From contig JAAZZQ010000060.1 in assembly GCA_014239155.1 (NCBI GenBank), positions 287,792 through 351,791 on the forward strand: a stretch of DNA of 64,000 nt. The letters run 5' to 3'. This document shows, in pieces, positions 38,137 to 50,994 of this stretch. Each line of letters starts with the position of its first letter. The stretch's first letter is position 1. Source of the DNA: Lachnospiraceae bacterium. GTDB lineage: Bacteria; Bacillota; Clostridia; Lachnospirales; Lachnospiraceae. The notes under the pieces were generated by a model that saw nothing but the letters and a program-made list of their open reading frames with translations, did no database searches and was not told where the DNA came from. The position numbers and the translations under genes are program-made.

Positions 38137-41100
38137 ATGACTGTAACACCAGACAATAAGTTAATTGGCAGGATGCTGGACCTGTTAACCAAATTGGGCA
38201 TTTCGCAGCGCGACTATGACTTGGCGGAACAATATTTGCACGGGGAAGTGAATGACGAGGTTTTAGACCAATTTGTGCGAAAGGATTTAAGGGCGCCAGC
38301 TCAAAATTTGTACTCTGAGGCGTGGACAATTACAAGGCAGGTAAACAAAAGTAGTAATAGAACTGTGTTTGTGCGCTTTTTTAATATTATTTATGCGATT
38401 GGTCATGGTACAGGGCATCATTTGTTCTGGTATGGGTCATTAGATATTGAAGAGTATGCGCTTTATAAAAAGATGGTTACATACATGTTCGGTCATACGG
38501 AATATAATGCTTTTTTGGGGCAATATGACTATAGTCAATTAATGCAGATGGCACAGTATAATCCACAAAATTTAATAGAGGTGATTCCTTATTTGAAGGA
38601 AGAATCACAATTGTATGCGGCTGCAGGATTGGCAATGTATTTTTGTAGAAAATATGAAAATCCTGGTGCAGTGGAAGCAGAGGATAAAATACATATGACA
38701 GAATACGAAAACATTGTACTAGAATATTTTGATAGTTGGCTTGCAGGATTGGGCTGTACTGTGCATGAGAAAGTCATATCAACTTTGCGTGAGAAAAAGC
38801 AAGCAGGAGATTTGATTGGTAGAATTGAGCATACAAGTATGAAGGGCGATGACCAGCAGATATTTTGTGCTTTATGTACATTTGCATACTTAAATTTTCA
38901 ACTTTCTGATGTGCTGCTGGCGATGATTCAGACATGTGCTGCTGTAAATGCAGAATTGATGCTTTTTTCCATACAGAATACATTTATAGGAGACAATGGA
39001 TGCAGAACAGAGTTCGCTTCTCATGGAATGGACTATGATGAACTGTTCCATATTGCGCCAACTTTGTATATTTGTGTGGCAGCAAAAGGGAAGCATGAAA
39101 AGATTTTAATTAGGCAGTTGGAAAAAAATCGGGAAAGTTATATAAAAGTTATAGAGCGGGAAAAATGCCACGAATTGGTTCATATTTGTATGCGCGCTTG
39201 GAGCAATGGAATCCCTCGTGTTGTGCAGGAAGTTACAGAGGAGGTGCGCATCACTTTAAAGGATGTTATGCAGAAAGTAAATCCGAGTTTGTATGAACAA
39301 GTAGTGCAAGACACAACCCTTGATTATGAGCCAGTGATCGCATTGCTTGTGGAACCTACGCCACATGCGGAGCTGGCAAAAAAGTATTTGCTAGGAAACT
39401 GCAAAGCTTCTGAGTTATATCCTTATGATAAAGAGTTTGGAGATAAATTTGAGAATGGGCTTTATCATGTAGGAAAAGTGCTACAAAGATTTAGAAAGCA
39501 TAATTGTGATGAGGCATTTATAAACCGATGTCGTGTATTTTTAGTTTTGAGAAAGTTTCCACATATTGAATTTGAGATGCAGGAGTGTAAAGGTGAGAAG
39601 GGATTAAGTGAATTTTTTGACAATCTCGATAAAGAAGAGTTAGACCTTGCGCACCAACTACAGGCATTTGCTTTACTATATAAAGAAAATCTTCAATATG
39701 ACAATAAGTTAAAGTTGCTTAAAAAGTGTGTTGAAAATAAGTATACAGAGTTTTTACAAGAAAATAGAAAAGAAGCCATACAAATGTTTGCCAATGCAGA
39801 CGCAGAGGCGCGCTGTCTTGGTCTGTACCTTTTTGGAAAAGATCCACAATCTTACAAACAAGAAATTTTAAGTTATACAAAAGACAGCTCTAGTCTTGTT
39901 CATCGGGAACTGATTCGCATTTTTTGTGTGCACAGAGAGTGGGAAGAAGAGGTCAAGACAATGCTATTAAATGGAAAAAAGGCGTCGCAACGGGAACTGG
40001 CAATCCAGATACTATTAAGATGGCAGAAAAACGATGAGGATTATTATGAGCTGCTCTCTCAGGCGCTTAAAAACGAGAAGAGTGGAAAATTGGTAACGCT
40101 GTTAGAGAAGGCATTGAAATTGCAACAAAAAGATCAAAATCAGCCAAAGAAACCAGCCACAAAAGAAGATTTGATTAGACAGGTACATCAAGGAGGCAGA
40201 AAGCGCACAATTGCATGGGCGTATGAGACCCCTTTTTCTGTTGTGCATATGGCAGATGGAAGCATTGCAGACGAGGAGTATTTACAGGCAATTTTCTTGT
40301 GTTATGCAGCGCAAACAGGGGGCGGTATTGACAAAAATGCGCAGCTTCTTGCGGCAGATTTAAATGCGTCTGAGTTTGCAGTCTATGTCAATGAGCTGTT
40401 TGACAAGTGGATTGCGCAGGGCGCAGAAGCCAAGAAACGTTGGGTTTTATATGCAGCGTCGATTCACGGCAAGGAGAGTATTATACCAAAGTTATATCAT
40501 CAAATTCAGGAATGGTCGAAGGGACCAAGGGGCACAATAGCGGCGGAAGCAGTGATGGCACTTGCATTGAATGTGTCACCGCAGGCATTGTTGCTCGTAG
40601 ATAATATTGCGCGAAAAATAAAACATAAGCAGGTGAAAAGTGGTGCTTTGATGGCACTGGATGAAGCGGCTAAAATGCGTGGGATTACCCGTGAGGAGCT
40701 TGACGACCGCATTGTGCCAAGCTTTGATTTTGACGAGAATATGCAACGAACATTTGATTATGGAACGCGCAGTTTTAAGGTGACACTCACATCGACGCTT
40801 GAGATTGAAGTGTTTGACGAAAATGGAAAGAAGCTGAAAAGTTTGCCAGCTCCAGGAAAGAAAGATGATGACCATAAGGCAACAGAAGCGTACACGGCAT
40901 TTAAAGAGATGAAAAAGCAGATAAAGACAGCCGTTAAAAATCAAAAAGAACGCCTTGAGCACGCGCTTTCTATAAAACGGGAGTGGAGTACAGATGCGTG
41001 GAATAATTTATTTGTAAAAAATCCTTTGATGCACCAATTTGCAATTGGTCTAATCTGGGGGATTTATCAGGGGGACAAGTTACTTCAAAGTTTTCGGTAT

Positions 41101-48981: not shown

Positions 48982-50994
48982 ATGGTGATAGGCATAGAGG
49001 ACAAGAAATTTGCGCAGATGTTAACACTTTTGGGAAATCTGGGTATTTCAGCATCAGACTGCGCTCTGGCAGAGGAATATCTGATTGGTAAAGTTGGAGA
49101 TGAGGTGCTAGACCAATTTCAACGAATGGATTTTAGTGCTGCCCAAATTACAGATGAGGTGCGAAAAGAACTAGGTGCGATTGAGTGGGAGATGCACGGA
49201 GATGCTATGTGGCAGCGACTGTTTAATGTGCTGTTTGCCATTGGTCATAATACAAGCAGTGTTCTGTTTTCTCATAATTGTGTAAATGGAGAGCGCTGTA
49301 AGGCAATGGTAATTTATATTGAAAAATGTTCTGAGAAGACAGGCTACCTAAATGATCATCACAGGACTTGTTTTGATATGGGAGAACTAATACATGAAAT
49401 TGATAATAAGCCCGAAAGCGTGTGGGAAATTGTAGAACAACTAAAAGGTGAAGGTGCAAAGTATTATCTGTCCGTTTTGTCAGCATATTTTTATAAAAAA
49501 TATGTTGATAGCGAATTGGTAGCTGTTGAGGATATAGAGTTGATGCAAACATATGAGAAGGGAATGCTAGACTGCCTAAATGAATGGCTGACACGTCAAA
49601 ATTGTCCCGCACAAGAAAAAATAATAACCGCAATTCGTTCCAAAAAGCTTACGCCAGAGTTGCTTGTCAACGTGAAACCATGCAATTTTACAGATTCTGA
49701 CCGCAAACAACTTTGTTTTATTGGCAGCATGGCATATTTAAATATTATGCTTTCTGGAATATTGCTGGATATTGTCAGAACATGCTTGGCTGTGGATGCG
49801 GAGTGGGTACTTTTGGCAATGTCAGATGTGATAGACAAGTCGCCAAATGCCAAGGATAGAATTGGTCAGGACTATAGTGAACTGTTTTGGATTGAACCAG
49901 AAACATATATTCGATGGGCGGCATTTGAAATTGCATATGCGTGTACAGTGTGCCCGTATCATGAAAAGTATGTATGTTCTGTTCAAATACCTATTTTAAA
50001 GAGGCAGCTTGAAAAAAATCAGGAGAGCTATCGAAAGGCGTTGGAGCAGAATACATATGCAACGCTGCTTGCAAAGGTAAACTACAAATTAGAGGATGCA
50101 ATTGATGTAATGAATGTGCTAAAGGATATATTGCAGGAGGAGAATCCAACTTTGTATGAACAGATTGGTGCAGGAAAGCCAAACTACGAACAAATTATTC
50201 ATTGTTTGGTTAGGGATACTCCGCACGTAGAGTTGGCAAGAGCGTATTTGCGGGGATATGGAACGATTTCAGAATTGTATCCATATGAGGAAGAATTTAC
50301 TACAGTGCAGATTTTTTATAGTTATTTGAAGAAATATAAAAAGCATTGCAAGGATATGATATTTCTCAATCGCTGTAAAACATTTATGGTATTTGTTGGC
50401 TCTTTGAACGTAACAATTGTTGAGAATTGTGCCAAACAAAAAACAAAACAGGTGGAGCAATTTTTCCAGATGCTTGACCATGAAAATTTGGATATTGCCC
50501 ATCAAATTAATGGTTTTATAACGTCATATAAAGCATATTGTGGACCATGTGGATGTACAACAAAAACATTTGTAAAGGGAGCAACAAATGTTTTTGCGCG
50601 GTATCTGGACAGTGGGCGGCGGGAGGAGACGCTCACTGCATTTTCCAAAGCAAAAGCGGAGGGACGCTATTTGGCACTGCTTGCAATGTGCAAAGATATT
50701 GCGCGAAATAAACAGGAAATTTTAAGTTATACATCGGACAGCGCAAAGATTGTTAAAAAAGCGCTTTTGGATATTTTGTATGCCCAGAAAGATTGGGAGG
50801 AGGATATAAAAGCACTTTTGAGAGCAAGAAAAGCGACACGGCGGGAGTTGGCGGTGCAAGTGTTAGCACATTGGCAGCAGAATGGCAGTGATTACAATGA
50901 TGTGCTTTTGCAGGCAATGGAAAGAGAGAAAAATACAAAGGTATACGCTTTAATGCAGAGTATACTGAATCGAAAGAAGAAAACGACGAATTAA
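48982..50994 (+). CDS. C-terminally truncated DUF4132-type paralogue 4 (helical region only)
   Basis: Aligns to paralogues 2-3 up to ...AMEREKNTKVYALMQSILNRKKKTTN then stop; C-terminal domain missing. Confidence 0.85.
   Translation: MVIGIEDKKFAQMLTLLGNLGISASDCALAEEYLIGKVGDEVLDQFQRMDFSAAQITDEVRKELGAIEWEMHGDAMWQRLFNVLFAIGHNTSSVLFSHNCVNGERCKAMVIYIEKCSEKTGYLNDHHRTCFDMGELIHEIDNKPESVWEIVEQLKGEGAKYYLSVLSAYFYKKYVDSELVAVEDIELMQTYEKGMLDCLNEWLTRQNCPAQEKIITAIRSKKLTPELLVNVKPCNFTDSDRKQLCFIGSMAYLNIMLSGILLDIVRTCLAVDAEWVLLAMSDVIDKSPNAKDRIGQDYSELFWIEPETYIRWAAFEIAYACTVCPYHEKYVCSVQIPILKRQLEKNQESYRKALEQNTYATLLAKVNYKLEDAIDVMNVLKDILQEENPTLYEQIGAGKPNYEQIIHCLVRDTPHVELARAYLRGYGTISELYPYEEEFTTVQIFYSYLKKYKKHCKDMIFLNRCKTFMVFVGSLNVTIVENCAKQKTKQVEQFFQMLDHENLDIAHQINGFITSYKAYCGPCGCTTKTFVKGATNVFARYLDSGRREETLTAFSKAKAEGRYLALLAMCKDIARNKQEILSYTSDSAKIVKKALLDILYAQKDWEEDIKALLRARKATRRELAVQVLAHWQQNGSDYNDVLLQAMEREKNTKVYALMQSILNRKKKTTN

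Follow-up and report, generated by a model that had tools for sequence, protein, structure and literature searches.

The window, the whole stretch of 64,000 nucleotides that was analysed, raises the question of why a gut Lachnospiraceae bacterium keeps several DUF4132 genes in one tandem array. Four head-to-tail open reading frames are found at 38137–50994, with intergenic gaps of 69, 51 and 12 bp. The array and its boundary consist of the following genes.

38137–41709, + strand: D1, 1190 aa, full-length DUF4132 protein, orthogroup A by tree; PF13569 with E 6.5e-54
41779–45360, + strand: D2, 1193 aa, full-length DUF4132 protein, orthogroup C by tree; PF13569 with E 1.8e-53
45412–48948, + strand: D3, 1178 aa, full-length DUF4132 protein, orthogroup D by tree; PF13569 with E 1.4e-52
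48961–50994, + strand: D4, 677 aa, remnant with the N-half only, orthogroup E, without the DUF4132 C-half
50991–51452, − strand: hexapeptide-repeat (gamma-carbonic-anhydrase-like) gene, PF00132, the array boundary

These coordinates, lengths and gaps of tens of bp agree with an earlier note on this DNA, which had described the four as DUF4132 paralogues. D1–D3 do carry the C-terminal domain PF13569/DUF4132, at 179–183 bits against a curated cut-off of 27. D4, in contrast, has no PF13569 match in the Pfam scan and is a paralogue of the N-half, with homology to D1–D3 over their first ~675 residues (37–53% identity, E 1e-104 to 1e-195). The N-terminal motif ascribed to all copies is indeed common to the four, in a loose form in D1. 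The same hexapeptide-gene flank is found beside the arrays of the congeneric genomes G006, G001 and G023.

The following genes precede the array.

26972–28090, + strand: YehL-type MoxR AAA+ ATPase, PF07728 with E 6e-32; same family as E. coli yehL
28051–30489, + strand: YehM-type DUF5682 protein, PF18934 with E 2e-92
30608–31516, + strand: ADP-ribosylglycohydrolase (accessory), PF03747 with E 9e-51
32043–33266, + strand: YehP-type vWA (CoxE-like) protein, PF05762 with E 9e-43
34030–35931, + strand: YehQ-type SWIM zinc-finger protein, PF04434 weak at E 0.004, below the curated cut-off
35959–36288, + strand: small conserved ORF of 109 aa between YehQ and the array, seen by tblastn

Genes for MoxR AAA+, DUF5682, vWA_CoxE, SWIM (weak, as listed) and DUF4132 proteins, by which a Yeh locus is recognised, are clustered here, and the array belongs to such a locus, with YehL, YehM, YehP and YehQ next to DUF4132. 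A profile built from the window's YehQ-type protein and E. coli YehQ finds YehQ in the same slot of other loci. Most loci fetched from Clostridia and beyond have the same gene order, YehL-M-P-Q-DUF4132, and the named relatives are Lachnospiraceae, e.g. bacterium A4, IMSAGC_011 and UBA7179. The window and G036 have the ADP-ribosylglycohydrolase gene; the other arrays of the genus show no such gene in the YehM–YehP interval. The 109-aa ORF, short enough to escape length cut-offs, gives tblastn matches in about 30 loci, mostly between YehQ and DUF4132; in L110 and L116 it lies within the YehQ ORF as a C-terminal fusion. On the opposite strand, an Imm1-family immunity protein (PF14430) is encoded at 33464–33835 (−) between YehP and YehQ, and the space between the small ORF and D1 contains a gene of 497 aa at 36371–37864 (−) whose start resembles a signal peptide. 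The latter gene has a perfect promoter at 37949–37922 (TTGACA-16-TATAAT, with TG), and three tandem genes in G004 C93 encode N-termini related to that of the 497-aa gene.

A comparison with the E. coli locus yehH(molR)-yehI-yehK-yehL-yehM-yehP-yehQ shows that DUF4132, MoxR, DUF5682, vWA_CoxE and SWIM likewise stand there in one cluster. The DUF4132 genes lie upstream in E. coli, whereas the three full copies and the remnant of the window lie downstream of YehQ. In E. coli the locus includes a WGR domain, which intact strains have as a fusion with DUF4132, while no WGR match is found among the window genes scanned. The earlier note had contrasted the array with a single-copy yehI in E. coli, a premise that does not hold. 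In K-12 a broken yehH, still encoding DUF4132 (E 6e-51), lies directly before yehI. Where the locus is intact, the DUF4132 genes form a tandem pair, and a match covering at least 80% of this two-gene cassette is present in 4705 of 5426 complete E. coli genomes. Nearly all E. coli possess the Yeh locus, but the literature searched assigns it no function and gives no binding partner, target, activity or tested function for any DUF4132 protein.

The AlphaFold model of D3 (76 sequences; pLDDT 90, pTM 0.58) predicts a helical solenoid at residues 1–650 and a C-module at 664–1178, in which helical repeats are followed by an alpha/beta part. Between them, residues 653–661 have pLDDT below 50 and form a predicted disordered linker. 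Every full-length copy is predicted to share this layout. A profile search finds HEAT-type relatives at residues 501–640, and a PDB fold search with the whole of D3 returns generic HEAT solenoids only (CAND1, karyopherins) at low TM. The C-domain alone has a model pLDDT of 95 and no PDB fold match below E 0.29, a high-confidence prediction without PDB counterpart. Nearly all invariant residues are found within the C-half. The analysis detects no enzymatic domain, and PDB matches for the C-domain are lacking, so that the effector role assumed in the earlier note is only putative.

Copy number does vary among congeneric genomes, from 1 to 5 tandem copies. Counting arrays at the Yeh-type or gamma-CA-flanked locus, one copy is found in G011, three in G001 and G023, four in G024 and five in G006; the window and G036 each have three full copies and the remnant. 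Among the YehQ-linked loci fetched across Clostridia and others, 42 have one copy, 10 have two and 1, from a congener, has three. Five orthogroups are observed in the N-half tree: A (D1), C (D2), D (D3), E (D4) and B, which is lost in the window. Orthologues of D1–D3 between the window and G006 are 64–92% identical in every 100-residue block, about equally in the N- and C-halves. Paralogues, in contrast, share mostly 30–50% identity in the N-half and mostly 65–90% in the C-half, and their synonymous distances are near saturation. With orthologues this similar and paralogue N-halves this different, the sequences indicate that the DUF4132 duplications predate the species compared.

The higher similarity of the paralogous C-halves is also found at four-fold sites. 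Same-array paralogues differ there by a mean of 0.457 in the C-half and 0.570 in the N-half (lower in the C-half in 27 of 29 pairs), while orthologues have no such contrast (0.489 and 0.509). Paralogues from different arrays served as control for the within-array comparison: the C-half difference is 0.448 within and 0.530 between arrays (permutation p 0.0002). For the N-half the values are 0.569 and 0.602 (p 0.006), a smaller effect which may come from shared codon usage. In addition, G006 copy 4 falls in the C group in the C-half tree, unlike in the N-half tree. The pattern indicates that the C-halves are partly homogenised by within-array gene conversion and the N-halves much less.

Across the genus, DUF4132 is found in 21 of 38 congeneric genomes. 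Yeh-type DUF5682, defined by a score below 350 bits (a second class scores near 500 bits), is found in 17 of the 38, exactly those with ~1200-aa or related ~850-aa DUF4132 proteins; these 17 are related to each other, so they are not 17 independent events, and a contig-edge DUF4132 fragment of unassigned class in G025 stands outside the match. Each of the 17 genomes has one Yeh-type DUF5682 gene against up to eight DUF4132 matches. The source genome itself has two further DUF4132 genes, mutually adjacent, on another contig (G000:C32, L051, locus 12870–20149), a distant full-length pair without adjacent YehL-Q; similar genes, mostly paired, occur in about nine congeners. The G006 array, too, lies on a contig without adjoining YehL-Q. 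Adjacency of DUF4132 to YehL-Q is thus not strict.

One YehL/M/P/Q gene set is seen to be common to several DUF4132 copies per genome. The explanation we tentatively prefer, at somewhat less than even confidence, is that the array supplies several variants of a single component in a Yeh-type MoxR-vWA system, namely adaptors with divergent target-binding solenoids and a common docking module. The C-terminal module would dock on the shared machine, formed by the YehL AAA+ ring and its vWA partner YehP, and the divergent N-terminal solenoid would select the target. YehL would then remodel the bound assembly in an ATP-dependent manner, in the way that NorQ/NorD and RavA/ViaA act on their clients. 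In those systems an AAA+ MoxR ring likewise acts with a vWA partner; here the part of the client would fall to the DUF4132 family or to its targets. Several retained copies would give one machine a wider target set. A fuller version is rather doubtful: one AAA+/vWA machine would use interchangeable solenoid adaptors whose N-halves stay distinct while the docking C-halves are homogenised by conversion, stand-alone N-halves recurring at the linker would act as regulators or decoys, and the C-domain would represent a new fold. In a lineage with as many as five diverged copies for a single machine, the shared half of DUF4132 can be told from the specific half, so that the function of DUF4132 becomes testable.

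Alternatively, the copies could be distinct subunits of one hetero-oligomeric assembly, stable subfunctionalised parts and not interchangeable adaptors. The orthogroups are old, each is under purifying selection as judged from the ratios given below, and their order is mostly kept, with A first wherever present and B last or next to last. However, species retain different subsets (A-D-B; A-E-C-B; A-C-D-E-B), and one copy suffices in most loci outside the genus, which a fixed complex would not easily tolerate. We regard such an assembly as unlikely.

A conflict system, in which diversifying immune-type receptors or effectors multiply against changing invaders, appears equally unlikely to us. 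The vWA-MoxR ternary conflict systems (Kaur et al. 2020, PMC7159879) have the same MoxR-vWA core, and the window likewise combines a MoxR ATPase, a vWA protein and a large third component. The patchy presence (17 of 38 congeners) and the varying copy number would also fit. In Deinococcus, DUF4132 and WGR genes rise upon depletion of the DNA-damage repressor DdrO, and MolR is described as LexA-regulated (PMC8533742); these links hint at a damage or conflict response. By contrast with the ternary systems, Pfam scans of the window locus find no VMAP, iSTAND, FtsH or beta-propeller partner, its bpMoxR score is below the cut-off, and its vWA protein has no fused effector domain. PMC7159879 makes no mention of DUF4132 or Yeh. 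Furthermore, no PADLOC model matches any component of the locus, no Firmicutes-type SOS box is found near the operon, and tblastn finds no D3 relative in phage records or viral contigs. PHROGs families matching DUF4132 and DUF5682 do exist, and one unannotated phage record (MT835988.1) has a DUF5682 relative.

The substitution ratios also stand against diversification. For orthologue pairs, omega (Nei-Gojobori) is 0.12–0.25 in N-halves and 0.08–0.14 in C-halves, well below 1 wherever tested, and no sliding 80-codon window in seven pairs exceeds 0.61. These values point to purifying selection on the copies, with no sign of positive selection at the resolution of gene halves and 80-codon windows. 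The selection for diversity suggested in the earlier note finds no support here.

Neutral gain and loss of tandem duplicates through unequal recombination, several copies bringing no benefit, would account for the varying copy number, for recombination among the C-halves and for D4 as a deletion scar. The D4 orthologue is full length in G006 (copy 4), G024, G029, G004 and G028. The D4 frame continues into the 3′ end of the hexapeptide gene that bounds the array; in G006 one more complete gene stands at this place. The simplest reading is therefore a single deletion that removed the whole of B together with the C-half of E. At outgroup-conserved sites 41 changes are found in D4 and 19 in G006 copy 4, with N/S of 1.77 and 1.00, respectively (p 0.049). 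No significant N/S difference is found for D1–D3 in the same test, which suggests relaxed constraint in D4. The near-identical genome G036 has a 1-base insertion (frameshift) near codon 602 of D4, which could be an assembly error. An omega of 0.92 between D4 and G036 was discarded as an artefact of this frameshift; without it, 3 synonymous and 3 non-synonymous differences are found in 600 codons, too few to judge. D4 ends at the linker. Two more genes consist of the N-half only, one of 679 aa in G004 and one of 694 aa in the spirochaete MAG L151. Both terminate, like D4, at the helix that precedes the linker, which argues against D4 being a pure relic: a solenoid on its own may occasionally be retained. 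The L151 gene, at L151:8192–10276, lies directly before a full-length DUF4132 gene. An apparent 712-aa N-half gene in G023 was rejected, as it results from a contig end cutting the gene. D4 itself is most likely a decaying relic which has lost its docking half. To be noted, a neutral origin of the whole array is still less probable than the conflict and hetero-oligomer explanations: five orthogroups are kept across species at omega near 0.15, so that selection is needed on most copies.

Recent amplification for gene dosage (dosage being one of the two options in the earlier note), although compatible with the tight head-to-tail spacing, is very improbable because the N-halves are only 30–50% identical, and as a recent event it is refuted by the five old orthogroups and by synonymous sites near saturation between copies.

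Two further classes are observed beside the adaptor candidates favoured above. The second DUF5682 class, near 500 bits, is present in the genus separately from the Yeh-type (G000:C41:21325–23430). A longer DUF4132 class of about 1700 aa, usually one per genome, is found in G021, G031, G037 and others in the family.
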